From positions 1,607,589 through 1,671,588 of the forward strand of contig NZ_QPMJ01000001.1 of NCBI RefSeq assembly GCF_003369835.1: DNA of 64,000 bases, read 5' to 3'. This DNA comes from Halorussus rarus. GTDB taxonomy: Archaea > Halobacteriota > Halobacteria > Halobacteriales > Haladaptataceae. Shown here piece after piece: positions 1,247 to 38,647 of the stretch. Position numbers and translations under genes: made by a program. The notes beneath the pieces are model-generated. The model searched no databases, was not told the DNA's origin, and saw only the letters and a program-made list of their open reading frames with translations. How positions within the stretch are numbered: position 1 is the first letter of the stretch; each line of letters begins with the position of its first letter.

Positions 1247-3547
1247 TCAGACCGCGGCGTAGACCTCGACGACTGCCGCGCTCGGAACGTCAGTCACTGC
1301 GAACGCACTCGACTGGGTCGCCGAAACGCTCGCCGGCTGGGTCACGGACGCGGGCAGGGCCATGCTGTCGGACTCCTGGGTCTGGTTGGTCTCGACGTTT
1401 ATCGACGAACTCGAACTCTGCTCGTTGCCGTCGCCGTCGGTGTACTGCTCGTCCTCTTGCTCGACCTCAACGTCGGAGCTCTGCTCCTGCTCGTTGTCGT
1501 CGCCGTCCTCGATATCCTGCTCGCTGTTCTGCTCGACCTCGGCGTCCTGTTCGACCTCCTGCTCGTTGTCATCGCCGTCGGTCTCCTGGTCGATCTCCTG
1601 TTCGACTTCGGCGTCCTGCTCGGACTCCTGCTCGTTGTCGTCGCCGTCTTCTATCTCCTGATCGCTCTCCTGCTCGACGTCGCTCTCCTGTTCGGCGTCC
1701 TGCTCGTTGTCGTCGCCGTCAGCTTCCTGTTCGACCTCGTTCTCCTGTTCGATGTCCTGTTCGGCGTCCTGCTCGTTGTCGTCGCCGTCCTCAACTTCCT
1801 GTTCGGCGTCCTGCTCGGCCTCGTTCTCTTGTTCGGCCTCCTGTTCGTTGTCGTCGCCGTCAGCTTCCTGTTCGGCCTCGTTCTCCTGTTCTAGTTCTTG
1901 CTCGAGGTCCTGTTCGTTGTCGTCACCGTCTTCGACTTCTTGCTCGCCCTCTTGCTCGCCTTCGTTCTCCTGCTCGAGTTCCTGCTCGTTGTCGTCACCC
2001 TCGGCTTCCTGCTCGCCCTCGTTCTCCTGTTCGGCTTCCTGCTCGCCCTCCTGCTCGTTGTCGTCGCCGTCTTCTATCTCCTGCTCGAGTTCTTGTTCGA
2101 GTTCGTTCTCCTGTTCGCCCTCCTGCTCGTTGTCGTCACCGTCTTCGACCTCCTGCTCGAACTCGTTCTCCTGCTCGCCCTCCTGTTCGCCTTCCTGCTC
2201 GTTGAAGATGCCGTCCTCGACTTCCTGTTCGATCTCCTGTTCTCCTTCGTTCTCCTGTTCGCCTTCCTGCTCGTTGTCGTCACCGTCTTCGACTTCCTGT
2301 TCGACTTCGTTCTCCTGCTCGAGGTCCTGCTCGCCCTCCTGCTCGTTGTCGTCGGCCAGGTCCTCGAGCTCTTGCTCTATCTCCTGTTCGCCCTCGTTCT
2401 CCTGCTCGGCGTCCTGCTCGTTGTCGTCACCGTCTTCGACTTCCTGTTCGGCCTCGTTCTCCTGTTCGAGGTCCTGCTCGGCTTCCTGTTCGTTGTCGAA
2501 CGCGTCGTCAGCTTCCTGCTCGACCTCTTGCTCGCCCTCGTTCTCCTGTTCGGCGTCCTGTTCGTTGTCGTCACCGTCTTCGACTTCCTGTTCGGCCTCG
2601 TTCTCCTGTTCGAGGTCCTGTTCCGCTTCCTGCTGGTCGCCGATACTTAGCCGGATGTCTTGTTCGACGTCCTGCTCGCCCTCGTTTTCCTGCTCGACCT
2701 CCTGCTCGTTGTCGTCACCGTCTTCGACCTCCTGCTCGAACTCGTTCTCCTGCTCGCCCTCCTGTTCGGACTCCTGCTCGTTGTCGAAGCCGTCTTCGAT
2801 TTCCTGCTCGCTGTCCTGTTCGAGTTCGTTCTCCTGCTCGCCCTCCTGCTCGTTGTCGTCACCGTCTTCGACCTCCTGCTCGCCCTGGTTCTCGAGCTCG
2901 CCCTCCTGTTCGGCGTCCTGCTCGTTGCCTTCGGAGTCGACCAGGTCACTTTCGACCTCCTGCTCGTTCTCTTGTTCGAGTTCGTTCTCCTGCTCGTTCT
3001 CCTGCTCGTTGTCGTCGCCGTCCTCGACCTCCTGCTCGTTCTCGTTCTCCAGTTCGCCTTCTTGGTCGGCGTACTGCTCGTTGTCGTCGCCCTCGGCTTC
3101 CTGCTCGTTCTCCTGCTCGAGTTCGTCCTCCTGTTCGGCCTCCTGCTCGTTGTCGTCGCCGTCTTCGACCTCCTGCTCGTTCTCCTGCTCGATGTCGCCC
3201 TCCTGGTCAACGTCTTGGACGTTGTCGTCACCGTCAGCGTCCTGCTCGTTCTCCATCTCAACTTCGCTCTCCTGCTCTACCTCCTGGCAGTTATCGTCGC
3301 CATCATCGATATCCTGTTCCGCGTCGGAACTCTCAAAGACGATCCGTTTCAGCCGTTGGGTGTTGTCGTCACCGTCAGCGTCCTGCTCGTTCTCCTGTTC
3401 GAGCTCGAGCTCATCCTCTTCCTCTTGACAGTTCTCATCCTGCGCGACAGCCGCTCCTGTCATCCCGATACTCATCACACTGACTACCATCAAGATGGTC
3501 AGTACGAGGGCCGTTGCGCGCCCGATTCTTGTCTCGTTTGCTCTCAT
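1247..3547 (-). CDS. Large secreted Glu/Gln/Asp-rich tandem-repeat protein, candidate beta-solenoid
   Basis: 766-residue protein. Residues 1-36 form a Sec signal peptide: a basic start (R-I-G-R), a hydrophobic core and a probable cut at A-V-A/Q. The mature part is about 28 units of 22-28 residues, each with a turn of the form D-G-D-D-N-E-Q between stretches in which Glu alternates with Q, V, L, A or N. Variant turns carry a hydrophobic residue (G-F-D-N, G-I-F-N, A-F-D-N). Alternation with Gly-x-x-Asn turns resembles curlin-type beta-strand repeats (inference). Only two cysteines are seen, both in N-C-Q near the N terminus. The C-terminal 60 residues are Ser/Thr/Val/Ala-rich, with no PGF-CTERM or membrane anchor. 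The ATG at 3547 is preferred over the upstream frame because it opens the signal peptide. Confidence 0.85.
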   Translation of the reverse strand: MRANETRIGRATALVLTILMVVSVMSIGMTGAAVAQDENCQEEEDELELEQENEQDADGDDNTQRLKRIVFESSDAEQDIDDGDDNCQEVEQESEVEMENEQDADGDDNVQDVDQEGDIEQENEQEVEDGDDNEQEAEQEDELEQENEQEAEGDDNEQYADQEGELENENEQEVEDGDDNEQENEQENELEQENEQEVESDLVDSEGNEQDAEQEGELENQGEQEVEDGDDNEQEGEQENELEQDSEQEIEDGFDNEQESEQEGEQENEFEQEVEDGDDNEQEVEQENEGEQDVEQDIRLSIGDQQEAEQDLEQENEAEQEVEDGDDNEQDAEQENEGEQEVEQEADDAFDNEQEAEQDLEQENEAEQEVEDGDDNEQDAEQENEGEQEIEQELEDLADDNEQEGEQDLEQENEVEQEVEDGDDNEQEGEQENEGEQEIEQEVEDGIFNEQEGEQEGEQENEFEQEVEDGDDNEQEGEQENELEQELEQEIEDGDDNEQEGEQEAEQENEGEQEAEGDDNEQELEQENEGEQEGEQEVEDGDDNEQDLEQELEQENEAEQEADGDDNEQEAEQENEAEQDAEQEVEDGDDNEQDAEQDIEQENEVEQEADGDDNEQDAEQESDVEQESDQEIEDGDDNEQESEQDAEVEQEIDQETDGDDNEQEVEQDAEVEQNSEQDIEDGDDNEQEQSSDVEVEQEDEQYTDGDGNEQSSSSSINVETNQTQESDSMALPASVTQPASVSATQSSAFAVTDVPSAAVVEVYAAV

Positions 3548-4039
3548 GAGTTCGTACCGCGACCTGTGGGTCGCACGGAACACCACAACGAACCCCCCTT
3601 TTGTTATTGGGCATCCTATAAATCCGTAACCTCGATTGTTATCAAACATCATAATAGTAACGGCCGTTAGAACAAAATCGTCGAGAATCAACGCCTAATG
3701 ATGGGAAAACGGAGGTATTTCGAATCAATAGTTTCGAACGATAAATCGAGCTCGGTGATCCGGGGGTGTCGGTGACCGCACTGGGTATCCGGCAGTTGTA
3801 GGTCGGGAACCGCATCGTTCGTTCGAACAGAGGATGGTATGTGGGATGTTATCTGCCCGCATCGTTCGTTTCCCGGTTCCCCGTCCTCATTGCGGTCGTC
3901 TCTCCGCTCGAAACACACCGATAACGGTCACGTTCCCCTCCGACCACGTCTCTCGTCGCCCCGCCGAATCGTGTCGCCGTAAGGATTGACGCGATTCGAA
4001 AGCGCAAACGTCGTACCCGCCCGGAGGAATATCTCTCGC
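3548..4039. other. Long AT-richer intergenic region between divergent genes
   Basis: 492 nt without a convincing gene. The half next to the repeat-protein gene is AT-rich and holds its promoter. The rest shows only short frames of non-haloarchaeal composition (Arg/Cys/His-rich), judged to be noise. It also contains the promoter of the winged-helix regulator at 4040. The length and AT content suggest regulated divergent transcription. Confidence 0.5.
3615..3669 (-). promoter_or_regulatory. Promoter region of the repeat-protein gene with an upstream palindrome
   Basis: Read on the minus strand, a TATA-like GATTTATAGG lies at 3615-3624, about 70 nt before the start codon. This implies a leader of roughly 45 nt, unlike most genes here. 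A perfect 12-bp palindrome, TAACGGCCGTTA, lies at 3658-3669, about 35 nt further upstream, in a typical activator position. The assignment rests on position and sequence only. Confidence 0.45.
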
Positions 4040-4318
4040 ATGACCAGATGGCTCCCGAGCGGGCGGCGGCGCGACCTCTGCGTCCTGCTGTACGACGACG
4101 GACCGCTCCGCGGCCAGTCGCTCAAGACCCGCCTCGAAGCCCACTACGACGCCCACATCGACTCTCAATCGTTCTACGGCGCGCTGAAATCGCTCGAAGA
4201 GAAGGGATTCGTGGAGAAGCGTACCGAGGGTATCCACGAGGCCTACGCCCTGACCGAGGCGGGCGAGCGTCGGGTCAGGGAACACTTCGAGTGGATGCGT
4301 GAGAAGGTTGCGGAGTAG
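4040..4318 (+). CDS. PadR-like winged-helix transcriptional regulator
   Basis: 92-residue single-domain protein. After M-T-R-W-L-P-S-G it has a winged-helix pattern: L-C-V-L-L-Y-D-D-G, then S-F-Y-G-A-L-K-S-L-E-E-K-G-F-V-E-K-R, then a Y-A-L-T-E-A-G-E-R-R-V wing. The Y-x-x-L-x-x-L-E-x-x-G-(F/L)-V layout and the A-Y-x-L-T-x-x-G wing are the PadR/PF03551 hallmark. The ATG at 4040 was chosen over the frame start at 3986 because the 18 residues before it do not fit the family. It diverges from the large repeat-protein gene and is a plausible regulator of it or of itself. Confidence 0.8.
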   Translation: MTRWLPSGRRRDLCVLLYDDGPLRGQSLKTRLEAHYDAHIDSQSFYGALKSLEEKGFVEKRTEGIHEAYALTEAGERRVREHFEWMREKVAE

Positions 4319-4346
4319 GGTGTCCTCCCGCGAGGGGGTCGTGCCC

Positions 4347-5489
4347 TCACTCCAGCAGTTCGTTCGCGATGGTGTTCCGCAGCACCTCGCTGGTACCCTC
4401 GTAGATCTCGTTGAGTTTCGAGTCGCGGTAGTACCGCTCGGCGGGGAAGTCCTTGGTGTAGCCGTACCCGCCGTGGATCTGGATGCCCTCGTTGGCGACC
4501 TCGCGGGAGATCTCCGACGCGTAGAGTTTGGCCTGGGCGGCCTGCTTGATGAAGTCCTCGCCGCGCATCTTGCGGTCGGCAGCGCGGTGCATCAGCATCT
4601 TGGCGGCCTGGACCTTGGTGTCCATGTCCGCGAGCTTGTGCTGGATGGTCTGGAACTCCGAGATGGACTGGTCGAACTGCTCGCGGTCCTGGGAGTACTC
4701 CAGGGCGTCTTCGAGCGCGGCGCGCGCGATGCCGATGGACCGGGCCGCGATGGTGATGCGCCCGCCGTTCAGGGTCTTGAGCGCGTGGACGAACCCGCGG
4801 CCCTCCTCGCCGAGCAGGCGGTCCTCGGGGATACGCATCTCGTCGAAACGGAGCTCGGCGGTCGGACAGCCCTTGTCGCCGAGCTTGTCCTCGGTGCCCT
4901 CGACGTGGAAGCCGTCGTCCTCCTCGGGCCGGACGACGAGCGACGAGATGCCCTTGTTACCCGCGTCGGGGTCGGTCTTGGCGAACAGCGTGACGGTGTC
5001 GGCGACCGAGCCGTTCGAGATCCAGAGCTTCCCGCCGTTGATCACGTACTCGTCGCCGTCCTTCTCGGCCGTCGTGTCCATCGCGGGGACGTCCGATCCG
5101 GCGCCCGCCTCCGAGAGCGCGAACGCGCCGATGTCCTCGCCGCGGTTGAGCGGCGTGAGGTACTCCTGCTTCTGCTCCTCGTCGCCGAAGGCGTAGAGCA
5201 TGTTGCCCGCGAGGCTGGTGTGGGCCGCCACGACCGTCCCCAGGCCGCCCGAGCCCCGGGAGATCTCCTCCAGCCCGATGGCGTAGGAGTGGTAGTCGAG
5301 GCCCGCCCCGCCGTACTCCTCGGGGAACGGCATCCCCATCAGGCCGAGGTCGGCCATCTGGTCGACGAGGTCCGCGGGGAACTCGTCGGTCTCGTCGATC
5401 TCGTCGGCCCGGGGCTCGATCTCCTCGTCGGCGAACTCCGAGACCATGTCGCGTATCTGCTTCTGTTCGGCGGAGAGGCTGAAGTCCAT
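4347..5489 (-). CDS. Acyl-CoA dehydrogenase
   Basis: 380-residue FAD enzyme that oxidises an acyl-CoA to the trans-2-enoyl-CoA, the first step of beta-oxidation, passing electrons to ETF. The family order is seen: N-terminal helical domain (M-D-F-S-L-S-A-E-Q), middle beta domain with A-L-S-E-A-G-A-G-S-D and W-I-S-N-G, and a C-terminal four-helix domain with Q-I-H-G-G-Y-G-Y and the catalytic-Glu motif Y-E-G-T-S-E. Length is normal. An in-frame TTG lies two codons upstream, but the ATG at 5489 fits the family. A palindrome abuts the start codon (see 5491-5503), shared with the paralogue at 22235. Substrate chain length cannot be told. Confidence 0.93.
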   Translation of the reverse strand: MDFSLSAEQKQIRDMVSEFADEEIEPRADEIDETDEFPADLVDQMADLGLMGMPFPEEYGGAGLDYHSYAIGLEEISRGSGGLGTVVAAHTSLAGNMLYAFGDEEQKQEYLTPLNRGEDIGAFALSEAGAGSDVPAMDTTAEKDGDEYVINGGKLWISNGSVADTVTLFAKTDPDAGNKGISSLVVRPEEDDGFHVEGTEDKLGDKGCPTAELRFDEMRIPEDRLLGEEGRGFVHALKTLNGGRITIAARSIGIARAALEDALEYSQDREQFDQSISEFQTIQHKLADMDTKVQAAKMLMHRAADRKMRGEDFIKQAAQAKLYASEISREVANEGIQIHGGYGYTKDFPAERYYRDSKLNEIYEGTSEVLRNTIANELLE

Positions 5490-5490
5490 G

Positions 5491-5503
5491 CGCAAAACTT
5501 GCG
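5491..5503. promoter_or_regulatory. Candidate operator CGCAA-N3-TTGCG at the acyl-CoA dehydrogenase start
   Basis: Perfect 5-bp arms CGCAA and TTGCG around AAC, one nucleotide upstream of the ATG at 5489. The same motif at identical spacing precedes the second acyl-CoA dehydrogenase (23379-23391), and a one-mismatch copy lies just upstream of the hydroxyacyl-CoA dehydrogenase (8018-8030). Its position over the probable transcription start suggests a repressor site. Confidence 0.6.
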
Positions 5504-5563
5504 GGCACGCCGTCCTTTAGCTTTCCCTTCGAACCGAGGCCGGTCCCGAGCGGCCGCTCGCGG

Positions 5564-5803
5564 TCAGAACAGCTTCCGCCGGACGTCGTCCGCCGCGAGC
5601 GCGCCCTGGAGCAGCCACGACGCAGCGGGGTGTCTGGGCGCGACGCTGGCGGCCCCGAGCAGGAGGAACGCCCGCGTGGGCTTTCCGTTCTTCAGAGCGA
5701 TGGCGGCCTGCAGGACGAACGACGCGACGTTGAGTCGGTTCGTCTCGATGCCCAGCGGCTTGCCGACGAGCACCTTGGCGGCGTCCCTGGGTGTCGGAAT
5801 CAT
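5564..5803 (-). CDS. Small conserved haloarchaeal protein
   Basis: 79-residue basic-to-neutral protein starting M-I-P-T-P-R-D-A-A-K-V-L. It has several amphipathic helical stretches (N-V-A-S-F-V-L-Q-A-A-I-A-L-K-N-G and A-F-L-L-L-G-A-A-S-V-A) and no clear transmembrane run or cysteine. The longer upstream frame is Arg-rich and rejected; the ATG at 5803 is used. It lies between the acyl-CoA dehydrogenase and the divergent squalene-synthase-like gene. Function unknown. Confidence 0.6.
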   Translation of the reverse strand: MIPTPRDAAKVLVGKPLGIETNRLNVASFVLQAAIALKNGKPTRAFLLLGAASVAPRHPAASWLLQGALAADDVRRKLF

Positions 5804-5994
5804 GTGTACTCGAACGCGGCGCGCCGGAATAAACGTTGGGTCGGTGACGGTTACGGCCCGCCTCGACCGAGTACAAGAAAGTGTCGGCACAATCGCCGGA
5901 CAGCCCAGAGCCAACGGCGGGGATTCCGACGGCGGTAAACGCTAAGGCATTTGCTCAAGCTTTTCAATCTCGCGTCCTAAGAACCCAGAAGTCA

Positions 5995-7074
5995 ATGGAT
6001 ACGGAGTCGCTCACCGAACGCCCGGACGCCGACATGGACTGGTGTTTCGAGGCCGTCCAGGGCGTGTCGAGAACGTTCGCCATCACCATCGACGTGCTCG
6101 AGCAGCCGATGGCGTCGTACATCTGCGTCGGCTACCTGCTCTGTCGCGTCGCCGATACGGTCGAGGACGCCGGTCACGTCCCGCCGGAGACCCAGTCCCG
6201 TCTCCTGACCCTCTACGACCGGGCGCTCGACCCGGACGACGAGACGAGCATCGAGGAGTTCCGGGCGGCCGTCGAGCCCCACCTGCCCGCGAACGCCGAC
6301 GAGGTCGACGCGGAGGAGGTCGCCCGCGAGGACTGGGACGTGGTCGCAGAGTCGCCCCGCGTCGTCGCCACCTTCCGGTCGCTGGGCGAGGACGCCCAGT
6401 CGGCAATCTACCCGCCGGTCAGCGAGCTGGTCAGGGGAATGGCCGAGTTCGTCGAGCGCTACGAGGACGACGGCGGCCTCCGCATCGGCACCATCGACGA
6501 GCTCGAGGAGTACTGCTGGTACGCAGCGGGCACCGTCGGCGAGCTCATCACCAATCTGGTCGCCCAGGACGTCGACGACCGGCGCGCCGAGGTGCTCCGG
6601 GCAAACGCCCGCGGGTTCGCGCTGCTGCTCCAGCTCGTCAACGTCGCCAAGGACGTCTCCGACGACTTCCGCGAGGAGAACAACGTCTACCTGCCCGCGA
6701 CGTGGCTCCGCGAGCACGGGGTGAGCCCGTCGAACGTCACCGACCCGGAGAACCGGACCGCGGTCGCCGGCGTCATCCGGCGGGTCACCCGCCACGCCCG
6801 CGGCTACATGGACGACGCCCAGCGCTACCTCGAGGTGCTCCCCGAATCGAAAGGGAACACCCTCGAAGCGTGGGCCATCCCGTACCTGCTGGCGGTCGGC
6901 ACCAGCCGCGAACTGCTCGAGCGCCCCGAGGACGTGGTGGAGGACGGCGGCGTGAAGGTCTCCCGCACGGAGGTGATGGGACTCATCCAGCTGTTCAAGT
7001 CGGGCAACGTCGAGCGCGAGAAGATCGGCGAGCTCCGGGCCCGGATGGAGGACGAGCAGTTCACGCCGTCGTGA
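5995..7074 (+). CDS. Phytoene/squalene synthase family protein, probably squalene synthase
   Basis: 359-residue prenyl-transferring enzyme that would condense two farnesyl diphosphates head to head to squalene. The first Asp-rich motif is D54-T-V-E-D58, within Y-L-L-C-R-V-A-D-T-V-E-D. The second is K-D-V-S-D-D-F-R-E-E-N-N-V-Y-L-P. The opening V-S-R-T-F-A-I-T-I and the length are closer to squalene synthases than to the roughly 320-residue CrtB phytoene synthases of haloarchaea. Squalene is a neutral membrane lipid of these cells. The frame extends 38 codons upstream of the ATG at 5995; that part is not conserved-looking. It could alternatively be a second phytoene synthase. Confidence 0.85.
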   Translation: MDTESLTERPDADMDWCFEAVQGVSRTFAITIDVLEQPMASYICVGYLLCRVADTVEDAGHVPPETQSRLLTLYDRALDPDDETSIEEFRAAVEPHLPANADEVDAEEVAREDWDVVAESPRVVATFRSLGEDAQSAIYPPVSELVRGMAEFVERYEDDGGLRIGTIDELEEYCWYAAGTVGELITNLVAQDVDDRRAEVLRANARGFALLLQLVNVAKDVSDDFREENNVYLPATWLREHGVSPSNVTDPENRTAVAGVIRRVTRHARGYMDDAQRYLEVLPESKGNTLEAWAIPYLLAVGTSRELLERPEDVVEDGGVKVSRTEVMGLIQLFKSGNVEREKIGELRARMEDEQFTPS

Positions 7075-35361: not shown

Positions 35362-36501
35362 TTAAACGACCTTCATCATCCTCCGTTCGAATCTGCCGAC
35401 CCTGACCTTCCGCCATCCCCGCAGCGAGTCGTCGACTTCGTCGTCGCCGGTGTCGACCCTGAGGACGCCGATACCGTCGAGTTTCGGCTTCGACGCGATT
35501 ATCTCGACCGAGGACCGTCGGACGACTTCCGGGGAGATCTGGTCGTTGCCGCGACCGAAGACGAACCCCTGCCCGCCGATGGGCGACACCACGACGACGT
35601 TCTTCTCGTCCAGGTGGGCCAGAATCTCGTCCTCGGTCGCGTCCTCGACCAGCACCTCGCCACCGTCGGACTCGTCCGACGAGCCTCCGTTCGCTTCGCT
35701 CTCGGAGACGCTTCGCCAAACGTCGACCCCGAGTGGAGACCCCTCGAAACCGAGTTCGTCCTTCACCGCGCCGACCGTGCTGCCCGGCCCGAGGACGTAC
35801 GTCGCGCCTTCGTCGGACCGGATGTCGTCGGCCACCCCGGCCGCCAGGCTCTCGACCGTGCCGCCGCCGACCTGCTTGCTCGACTGGAGGTCCTCGGCGA
35901 CCGGCACCGCGACCACCGCCCTGAGTTCGGCCCGGACCTCGCCCTCCCGGTAGGCGTCCTCGTCGATGTCGTTGACCTCGCGGTCCTCGGTCCGGTCGAA
36001 GTCGGCGGCGACCCGGCCCGCGGCCTCGGGCGTGACCGCGAACACCGCCGAGTAGACCTTCACGCCCGCGGGCACGCCGAGCACCGGAACCTCTGCGCCC
36101 TCTTCGTCGAGCGTCTCGGCCACGTCGACCGCGGTCCCGTCGCCGCCGACGAACAGTATCAGGTCGACGCCTTCGGCGACGAATCGCCTGACCGCCTCGC
36201 GGGTGTCCGCGGCGGTCGTCTCGTCCTCGCGCTCGGGACGACCGACGATGACGGGGTCGAACCCCGCCTCGCGGGCCTCGCGCTCGCCCATCTCCCCGCC
36301 GTAGGTCAGCAGGTCGACGTCGGGAGCGCCGGAGGCGTCGACGCGCTCGCGGAGCGCGCCCAGCGCGTCGACCGCCCGGTCGGGTGCGCGCGGTTCCGCG
36401 CCGCGCTCGCGGGCCGCCTCGACCTTCCCGTCGGTGCCCTTCAGACCGACTCGCCCGCCCATCCCCGCGACGGGGTTGACGACGACGCCGATGGTTCGCA
36501 T
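35362..36501 (-). CDS. ATP-NAD kinase family protein
   Basis: 379-residue protein of the ATP-NAD kinase/AcoX group. It opens M-R-T-I-G-V-V-V-N-P-V-A-G-M-G-G, with the catalytic G-G-D-G-T-A-V-D-V-A and P-A-G-V-K-V-Y-S. The C-terminal half has S-P-I-G-G-Q-G-F-V-F-G-R-G-N. It would phosphorylate NAD or a related substrate. Residues about 265-285 are a Ser/Glu/Gly/Asp loop encoded by a palindromic dispersed element (35674-35709) also found at 49361-49396. The ATG at 36501 precedes the first strand directly and is preferred to an upstream frame start. Confidence 0.87.
   Translation of the reverse strand: MRTIGVVVNPVAGMGGRVGLKGTDGKVEAARERGAEPRAPDRAVDALGALRERVDASGAPDVDLLTYGGEMGEREAREAGFDPVIVGRPEREDETTAADTREAVRRFVAEGVDLILFVGGDGTAVDVAETLDEEGAEVPVLGVPAGVKVYSAVFAVTPEAAGRVAADFDRTEDREVNDIDEDAYREGEVRAELRAVVAVPVAEDLQSSKQVGGGTVESLAAGVADDIRSDEGATYVLGPGSTVGAVKDELGFEGSPLGVDVWRSVSESEANGGSSDESDGGEVLVEDATEDEILAHLDEKNVVVVSPIGGQGFVFGRGNDQISPEVVRRSSVEIIASKPKLDGIGVLRVDTGDDEVDDSLRGWRKVRVGRFERRMMKVV
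35674..35709 (-). repeat. 36-bp palindrome-rich dispersed repeat, copy A (in frame within the NAD kinase gene)
   Basis: On the minus strand it reads GTCTCCGAGAGCGAAGCGAA then CGGAGGCTCGTCGGAC. It matches 32 of 36 bases of the intergenic copy at 49361-49396. It contains a CTCCG...CGGAG inverted repeat, and an adjacent GTCGGAC-TC-GTCCGAC palindrome at 35665-35680. The insertion keeps the frame. Confidence 0.8.
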
Positions 36502-36576: not shown

Positions 36577-37398
36577 TCAGTACGACTGGGTGCCCTGGAA
36601 CGACTGCCCCTGGGGCTGCTGGAACGACTGGCCCGTCTGTCCGCCCTGCTGGCTCGTCTGTCCACCCTGCGGCTGCTGGTAGGACTGGCTCTGGGGCTGC
36701 TGGTGGGACGACTGACCCATCTGTCCGCCCGGCTGGCTGGACTGTCCGCCCTGCTGGCTCGTCGTGCCCTGTTGGCCCATCGACTGCTGGCCCTGCTGAC
36801 TGACCTGCTCGCGGATGCCAGTGGTCGCGCTCTGCTGGCCGCCGCTGATGGAGTTGAGCAGCTTCTCGGTGGCGTCCAGCGCCTGCGTCACCGCCTGGTA
36901 TGTCTCCTGGACGTGGGGCGACTGCTGGTGCTGCTCGAGGATCGGCAGCCCCTGCTGGGCGACCTTGATGAACGCCTCCGCAACCTCCGGCCCGTTGATG
37001 GAGTCGCGCGCGATGAGCTTCTCGTTCAGCGACGCCAGGTCGGCGAGGTCCTCGCAGAGCCGGGCGCACTCGGCCATCTGCGGGCCGCTCTCGATGCACT
37101 TGTCGGCGCACCACTCGGCGATCTCGACCACGCGGTCGAACGACTCCAGCGCCTGGTTGAGCTCCGGAGTCATCTCCGACTCGAACTGCTGACCGACCCG
37201 CTCGTGGGTAATCTGGTGGCTCTGGCCGCTCTGCTGGCCGCTCATCTGGGCCGACTGCATCGGCTGTTGCTGGGTGGTCCCCTGTTGGCCCATCTGGCCG
37301 TGCGTCTGCTGACCCGTCTGTCCGTGCTTCTGCTGTCCCGTCTGTCCGTACGTTTGCTGTCCCGTGCTCCCCGTCGGCTGTTGATAGTGCTGTGACAT
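36577..37398 (-). CDS. Gln-rich low-complexity protein with a central four-helix, Csp/DUF326-like core
   Basis: 273 residues. About 1-65 and 180-273 are Gln/Gly/Ser/Thr-rich (runs such as T-G-Q-Q-T-Y-G-Q-T-G-Q-Q). About 66-175 form a helical core with A-E-W-C-A-D-K-C, A-E-C-A-R-L-C-E-D-L-A-D and L-A-S-L-N-E-K-L-I-A-R-D-S. The C-A-D-K-C and A-R-L-C spacings recall the Cys-rich four-helix DUF326/copper-storage (Csp) bundles, but only four Cys remain. The flanks are prion-like and unusually low in acid for a haloarchaeon. A surface-adhesive, condensate-forming or metal-binding role is conceivable. No signal peptide. Confidence 0.8.
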   Translation of the reverse strand: MSQHYQQPTGSTGQQTYGQTGQQKHGQTGQQTHGQMGQQGTTQQQPMQSAQMSGQQSGQSHQITHERVGQQFESEMTPELNQALESFDRVVEIAEWCADKCIESGPQMAECARLCEDLADLASLNEKLIARDSINGPEVAEAFIKVAQQGLPILEQHQQSPHVQETYQAVTQALDATEKLLNSISGGQQSATTGIREQVSQQGQQSMGQQGTTSQQGGQSSQPGGQMGQSSHQQPQSQSYQQPQGGQTSQQGGQTGQSFQQPQGQSFQGTQSY

Positions 37399-37695
37399 AG
37401 TTCGTTCACCCCCGCGTAGGCACCTCCTAACGTCGAGGCGCCCTCAGCGGGTGGACGGTAGTTCGCCGGAAATACGGATAAACCGGAGCGACCGTTGGCG
37501 ACTGTTCAACCGGGCAATGGAGTATTTCCGTACTTACGGAGTCGAAAAAACCGATTTCCGGGGAGAAAGAAACACCCAGTTACGCCGACGTTTCCGAACC
37601 GTTCGCCGGGACAACGACGGATTTCGACCGGGCGACCGCGGGAGCGTCCGACAGGGTTGGCAAGCGTTAAGGGACCGGCACCGGAACGCTCGGAC

Positions 37696-37854: not shown

Positions 37855-38547
37855 CTACCGGTCGATTCCCTCGACGCGCTCGCGCAGCCATTCCGCCGCG
37901 CGTTCGAGTTCCTCTTCGTCGGTGCTCCGTAGCTTGACCCGGACGTGGTCGCCGGGGTAGCTCCCGACGGTCACGTCGAACTCCTCCCGGAGCGTCGCGA
38001 ACCGTTCGACCAGCGCGCTCTCGGGCTCGTCGGCCTCCACGGTCCTGACGTGGCGGTACTCGCCCGAGAACTCGTCGGCGATGCCCTCGAACATCGCCTC
38101 CATCTCCGCCGGGACGCCCGGCAGGACGTAGATGTTCTCGACGACGCACCCCGGCGCGACGCCCTCGCGATTCGGCAACATTCGGGCTCCCTTCGGGAGG
38201 TGGGTCGTCCCCTCCACCAGGTCGGCCCGCCGGTAGTCGGTGTGGTCGGCGATCCACGCCACGGCCTCGTCGTGCTCCTCCACCGGCACGCCGACGGCGG
38301 CCGCCACGGCCTCCATCGTGAGGTCGTCGTGCGTCGGGCCGAGGCCGCCGGTGACCACCACCGCGTCGTACTCGGCCCGGAGCTCGTTGACCACCCGGGC
38401 GATGTCGGCCACGCGGTCGGGGACCACGACGACGCGCTCGACGCTCGCGCCGCGCTCGGTGAGGCGCTCGCCCAGCCACGCGGCGTTCGTGTTCACGGTG
38501 TCGCCCGCCAGCAGTTCGTCGCCGACGGAGACGAGGGCTACGTCCAT
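37855..38547 (-). CDS. CinA/MoaB-like molybdopterin-binding domain protein
   Basis: 230-residue protein with the MoCF fold: V-A-L-V-S-V-G-D-E-L-L-A-G-D-T-V-N-T-N at the start, V-V-V-T-G-G-L-G-P-T-H-D-D-L-T in the middle, then Y-V-L-P-G-V-P-A-E-M-E-A-M-F. This is the N-terminal part of CinA, without the C-terminal NMN deamidase domain. Archaeal versions are annotated as nicotinamide-nucleotide or molybdopterin-binding proteins. The ATG at 38547 is preferred to the GTG two codons earlier. Confidence 0.85.
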   Translation of the reverse strand: MDVALVSVGDELLAGDTVNTNAAWLGERLTERGASVERVVVVPDRVADIARVVNELRAEYDAVVVTGGLGPTHDDLTMEAVAAAVGVPVEEHDEAVAWIADHTDYRRADLVEGTTHLPKGARMLPNREGVAPGCVVENIYVLPGVPAEMEAMFEGIADEFSGEYRHVRTVEADEPESALVERFATLREEFDVTVGSYPGDHVRVKLRSTDEEELERAAEWLRERVEGIDR

Positions 38548-38647
38548 GGACACGGGTACGAATCGCGGAGATAAAAAGAGGGCGTTACCCGACCTCGCGG
38601 ACCGCGGTCTCGGGTTCGCGACCGTCCTCGGAGGCGACGCGGGCCGG

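Follow-up and report, generated by a model that had tools for sequence, protein, structure and literature searches.

A degenerate copper-storage-type protein with glutamine-rich arms in Halorussus rarus and other haloarchaea

A conserved gene and its neighbours

We analyzed a stretch of 64,000 nucleotides from the Halorussus rarus genome (the window). On its minus strand, an ATG-initiated open reading frame at 36577..37398 encodes a protein of 273 amino acids with a helical core of the copper storage protein (Csp) type between two Gln-rich flanks. The frame is a real gene, because purifying selection acts on its core codons (dN/dS 0.09-0.43 against nine orthologues), its third-position GC is 0.91, a Shine-Dalgarno-like GGGGGTGA lies upstream of the ATG (37406..37413, minus strand; recognized in the sequence and an upstream alignment), a promoter-like element CCGGTTTATCC (37476..37486, minus strand) is kept as TTTAT in 10 of 10 aligned upstream regions, and orthologues with Gln-rich flanks were found in all nine Halorussus genomes sampled.

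The downstream neighbour encodes an NAD kinase family protein (35365..36498, minus strand) and the upstream neighbour a MoCF_biosynth/CinA-type protein (37858..38553, minus strand). This synteny is conserved in Halorussus, where the gene stands between the CinA-type and NAD kinase genes, with a PhoU-domain gene beyond the latter. In Natrinema and its kin, the Gln-flanked Csp gene is located between upp and a DUF5828 gene. No copper gene adjoins the gene at the window locus. The derivation of a function from an operon was rejected, since the differing synteny of Halorussus and Natrinema suggests no shared pathway.

Other loci of the family have neighbours of their own. At the early-branching locus L054, the Csp has as neighbours a phasin-like protein with a Gln/Pro tail and a Gln-rich protein with a CBS pair; the three genes lie in a row on the plus strand (3258-6699), with Gln-rich tails on the phasin-like helix, the CBS pair and the Csp. 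The product of the gene adjoining the Gln-flanked Csp at L053 (7053-7727) and L059 (6881-7636) is of low complexity and purely Gln-rich. Near Gln-flanked Csps with eight or nine Cys lie small proteins of PRC-barrel-like appearance, judged by eye (L055, 4752-4988; L058, 5625-5867; L059, 3606-3845), and the one checked had no Pfam match. DUF5789 and dodecin genes also occur near such loci. Elsewhere in the window, a minus-strand gene at 1250-3652 encodes 801 amino acids that begin like a signal peptide and include strongly acidic repeats of Glu, Gln, Asn and Asp (EQENEQEVEDGDDNEQ), with a net charge of about −0.42 per residue.

A Csp-type core with several mouth positions kept

An AlphaFold2 model built on 15 natural orthologues predicts four helices in a core of residues 71-188 (36835..37188, minus strand), with block means of pLDDT mostly of 83-97. 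Helix 1 covers residues 78-104 (37087..37167) and includes WCADKC, helix 2 covers residues 106-130 (37009..37083) and includes CARLC, helix 3 covers residues 136-156 (36931..36993), and helix 4 covers residues 161-186 (36841..36918), all on the minus strand. The best match to this model in VIA-align was SlCsp3 (Z 17.9, rmsd 1.6 Å over 110 residues), followed by MtCsp3 (Z 17.5), BsCsp3 (17.1) and Csp1 (16.4). Among the top 22 entries there was nothing but bundles of the Csp1/Csp3 type or their close kin; fusions of one of them followed, and the first unrelated bundle appeared at Z 12.4. The same families ranked first in Foldseek. By its modelled fold the core is thus a degenerate Csp-type four-helix bundle, in agreement with the copper-storage-type helical core that an earlier note on this DNA had proposed from the letters and translations.

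Sequence kinship was visible through a second gene of the same genome, which the window protein matched at E 1.7e-12 over residues 81-193. This paralogue has 116 amino acids and 15 Cys and matches both BsCsp3 (E 4.7e-17) and the DUF326 profile PF03860 (E 7.6e-7; 29.3 bits, threshold 20.4); by its sequence it is an ordinary Csp3. The earlier note had also proposed a DUF326 search of the core as a check of kinship. Here the expectation failed, as PF03860 gave no match to the Gln-flanked Csp even at E 10 despite the Csp-type fold. The Csp1 profile TIGR04401 was matched at E 0.003 and 17.6 bits, far below its 100-bit cut-off, and relatives reached 19-22 bits. A profile of the family searched against PDB sequences returned only chance matches to designed repeat proteins and no Csp. 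The link to Csps therefore shows through the own-genome Csp3 and through the fold, and a protein that is missed by DUF326 and matches TIGR04401 only at E 0.003 is not to be filed as a storage Csp.

In Csp3s, the deep Cys build tetranuclear Cu(I) clusters. Characterized members have a Cys-lined core with 16-19 Cys (PMC10155185), which has room for many Cu(I). At the open end of MtCsp3, Cu(I) is held by Cys54, Cys111, His104 and His110, several of its Cu(I) sites are carried by CxxxC pairs on single helices, and Asn58 lies between the core and the mouth (PMC5171941, PMC10155185); the mouth is the presumed route of Cu(I) entry and exit (PMC5171941).

The window protein has four Cys in total, all in the two motifs recognized at the outset, CADKC (residues 97-101; 37096..37110, minus strand) and CARLC (residues 111-115; 37054..37068, minus strand), so that the proposed loss of most Cys also stands. 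When MtCsp3 numbering was transferred through the own-genome Csp3 and SlCsp3, C97 and C101 aligned with the mouth residues Cys38 and Cys42, C111 with the mouth residue Cys54, C115 with the position of Asn58, and H162 (36913..36915, minus strand) with the mouth Cu(I) ligand His110. The mouth has thus kept Cys38, Cys42, Cys54, His110 and the His104-aligned residue, with Cys in place of Asn58, and has lost Cys111 and His108. The residues at 24, 28, 35, 90, 94, 97, 101, 114, 121 and 125 are replaced; on helix 3, Cys 90, 94, 97 and 101 of Csp3 correspond to F, A, G and L, and on helix 4 none of Cys 111, 114, 121 and 125 is left.

This pattern recurs among the 54 relatives with four to six Cys. Cys54 and Cys58 are present in all 54, His110 in 53, Cys38 in 52 and Cys42 in 49, the remaining five having Met at position 42. 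The same five carry Cys111 and form a single clade, so that the change counts as one event. Hardly any of the 54 retain Cys at the deep positions 24, 28, 35, 90, 94, 97, 101, 114 and 121, and a lone Cys at 125, with no evident partner, is found in 31. The class with eight or nine Cys keeps positions 35, 38, 42, 54, 58, 97, 101, 104, 110, 111 and 114 and lacks the far end. As mouth and middle are thereby retained and the far end is missing, loss runs from the closed end toward the mouth. Judged from these alignments, Cys loss is non-random: the deep storage Cys are gone and several mouth ligand positions remain.

Gln-rich arms and the history of the family

The N-terminal flank (residues 1-70; 37189..37398, minus strand) contains 24 Gln (34%), two Lys/Arg and one Asp/Glu, and its tip is conserved as MSxxYQQ in the alignment. 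The C-terminal flank (residues 189-273; 36580..36834, minus strand) contains 32 Gln (38%), one Lys/Arg and one Asp/Glu, and ends in QSY. Both are predicted to be disordered, with pLDDT mostly below 50. There are only five charged residues in the two flanks combined, and the core (71-188) is acidic, with 21 Asp/Glu against 7 Lys/Arg. The arms have no Asn, few aromatics and many Gly, Pro and Met. Their lengths are close to the values of about 65 and 95 residues first assigned to them.

As a background for this composition we used 262 genes, obtained by crude gene calling from the window plus twelve further stretches of this genome. The Gln fraction of 24.9% ranked first (mean 2.5%, s.d. 2.3), as did the density of Gln plus Asn, 31 per 80 residues (median 6), well outside what chance would give and bearing out the earlier note in calling neutral Gln-rich flanks unusual for this proteome. 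Prion-like composition was scored with the Q/N prion-domain log-odds table of PMC3654983, using a 60-residue scoring window and a cut-off of 50 bits. The protein again came first of the 262 genes, with 59.3 bits (an upper value, because the proline correction of that paper was left out) and the runner-up at 18.8. The label 'prion-like' therefore holds for the composition of the window protein and fails for most of its family, in which only 14 of 69 Gln-type relatives reach the cut-off and 55 fall below it. Composition scores alone yield false positives, with 16% false discovery in the authors' own benchmark (PMC3654983), and 'prion' denotes here a match of composition only.

To place the family, we surveyed 391 sampled haloarchaeal genomes, of which 202 had a match to the window protein, Csp3s included. 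Gln-flanked proteins occur in at least 59 of them by our count from the survey, all nine of Halorussus among them; 148 genomes sampled from the phylum outside the haloarchaeal order gave no match. Genomes were assigned to Halorussus through proteins identical to those of named species of that genus. In the tree, 69 distinct Gln-type sequences fall on one side of a branch with support of 100/100, which was still 100/99 after removal of 15 Cys-bearing columns. With bacterial Csp3s as an outgroup, the Gln-type proteins nest among haloarchaeal Csp3s (80/97), a rooting that is less certain given the long bacterial branches. Within the Gln-type clade, proteins with eight or nine Cys branch early and those with four to six later, and those with zero to two are nested within. 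We found no description of haloarchaeal Gln-flanked Csps in the open-access papers that we searched, including those on Gln-rich, prion-like and DUF326 proteins.

None of the Csp3s with 13-17 Cys has Gln-rich flanks, and all but one or two of the Gln-type members have retained them. At L047:6504 the flanks are rich in Arg instead of Gln, the Gln-poor N-flank of L075 may stem from a start-codon error, and the flanks of L055 and L058 are short. Orthologue alignments indicate that the flanks evolve fast in sequence and length and keep their composition, with class averages of 28-39% Gln and less than 11% Lys, Arg, Asp and Glu together. A C-terminal Tyr, Phe or Trp is found in 50 of 69 Gln-type proteins against 0 of 27 Csp3s, in counts that ignore kinship. 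The arms appear to outlast the metal site: members with zero to two Cys still carry flanks of 26-56% Gln. Such forms were read in four genomes (G274, G326, G137 and G372), each of which also has a Cys-bearing Gln-flanked form.

Variants of this layout were observed as well. Proteins at L050, L051 and L052 possess an N-terminal Gln-rich arm only, of about 200-250 residues and strongly basic at its start. Cys-poor Gln-flanked paralogues at L048 and L063, from two genera, share one neighbourhood, in which they are flanked by genes named by eye as tRNA-modification-like and diphthine-synthase-like.

Gln-rich flanks are also found on both sides of a Dps-type ferritin-domain protein (PF00210) of the same genome (G000:C2:1281388-1281651; L129, also L125). 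It was found among matches to the codon pattern QxQQxxQQ, which is not enriched in this genome (8 matches versus 25 in a reversed control). The Gln-flanked Dps is present in 7 of 10 Halorussus genomes, and three other Dps paralogues are without flanks. Two metal-storage cores of unrelated sequence with the same type of arm in one genus give the strongest hint that the arms share a purpose. The parallel makes chance less likely. A further gene of the genome (G000:C1:1584551; L124, minus strand) encodes 328 amino acids that are almost wholly Gln, Ser, Gly, Arg and His; it contains a run of nine His, ends in RRPQY and has no Pfam domain.

Possible functions and likeness to known systems

Taken together, sequence, fold and tree indicate that the window protein is derived from a cytosolic Csp3 that ceased to be a store. 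Members of the family line up in a clear series: the copper store is dismantled from the bottom upward, its door stays and, in parallel, disordered arms are added. For the present role of the protein we tentatively favor, at a probability of about 0.45, a multivalent, salt-tolerant, self-assembling and stress-responsive scaffold that retains a small Cu(I)/thiol site. The bundle persists, its deep Cys have turned into ordinary packing residues, and Cys38, Cys42, Cys54, Cys58 and His110 stay at the mouth. Such a bundle would take no more than a few Cu(I), or it might serve as a thiol-based switch. Csps are tetramers; should the window protein share this state, its four bundles would together carry eight neutral arms of Gln, Gly and Ser. 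As these arms are almost uncharged, their self-association should escape screening by multimolar salt, and they may drive reversible condensation or gel formation. The tuning would come from the Cu(I) or redox state of the mouth, perhaps together with ionic strength or desiccation.

Condensation that relies on charge is expected to be weak at 4 M salt. If the arms do assemble, they would therefore show a mode of condensation, based on a disordered protein, that is workable in a saturated-brine cytoplasm. Further proteins with Gln-rich flanks might share the assembly role, the Gln-flanked Dps of the genus among them. In a broader version, which we regard as rather unlikely, neutral Gln arms were grafted independently onto Csp, Dps, CBS pair and phasin-like helix as a shared haloarchaeal adhesive, and salt-tolerant co-condensates would, under stress, gather copper and iron or respond to them.

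Alternatively, the mouth may take up one or two Cu(I) and hand them on, as a chaperone, buffer or sensor, the arms being entropic spacers or solubility tags with no part in assembly. The near invariance of the mouth residues, their place on the presumed Csp3 entry and exit route (PMC5171941) and the true Csp3 of the genome as a potential partner speak for such Cu(I) handling. However, members with zero to two Cys lack the site and still have the arms, at least one relative (G172) has no second Csp-like match, no copper genes are adjacent, and 34-38% Gln is not obviously needed for a spacer. We thus consider it a secondary possibility, unlikely on balance.

The clade with zero to two Cys, which has lost all metal ligands and retained its flanks, and the stepwise Cys loss down the family would suit a metal-free structural scaffold, in which the bundle only oligomerizes the arms and the Cys that are left serve for disulfides or core packing. 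Against it, four Cys and a His are nearly invariant over 54 diverse proteins, and the Met42/Cys111 combination retains ligand-type residues, making a metal-free role distinctly unlikely.

A heritable prion or functional amyloid would fit the score of 59.3 against the published cut-off of 50 and is very improbable given arms with no Asn and many Gly, Pro and Met, the 55 of 69 relatives below the cut-off and the 16% false discovery of composition scores alone. Least probable is a phasin-like coat protein of polyhydroxyalkanoate (PHA) granules. In its favour stand the L054 neighbours, the Gln-rich CBS protein and the Gln/Pro-tailed protein that is weakly similar to the phasin-like protein of the PHA locus in the window genome; against it, PHA synthase (TIGR01836) is missing in six of nine Halorussus genomes with the gene and in both sampled sister-genus genomes, which refutes a general granule role and leaves at most a role on the granules of some species.

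The scaffold reading has an analogue in NFAT5, an animal transcription factor to which the window protein has no kinship and with which it shares a long disordered prion-like arm. In NFAT5 the Gln residues of the prion-like domain are important, and the purified domain condenses alone as ionic strength rises; nine other disordered regions gave no response in cells, and NFAT5 itself responds to modest rises, far below 4 M (PMC10602047). Condensation of the window protein in rising salt may be envisaged by this analogy, but that range and those nine non-responders give no ground for presuming the same at 4 M.

Closer likenesses lie within metal storage. In the Gln-flanked Dps of Halorussus, too, a four-helix-bundle core for metal storage is framed by two Gln-rich arms, and the family is an oligomeric one, but its core is of the ferritin/Dps type, its sequence is unrelated and its arms contain more Arg. 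With Csp3s (MtCsp3, BsCsp3, SlCsp3; PF03860) the window protein shares the four-helix bundle, the CxxxC units, His110 at the mouth and homology through the own-genome Csp3; it differs from them in its Cys number (4 versus 13-19), its missing storage core, the long Gln-rich arms at both ends and the absence of a PF03860 match. RkCsp3 (PMC10155185), from a non-classical subgroup of Csp3s whose mouth has fewer ligands, is likewise a Csp3 variant with an altered set of sites. The change there is the opposite one: in RkCsp3 mouth ligands are gone and the core remains, whereas in the window protein the core is gone and much of the mouth remains.
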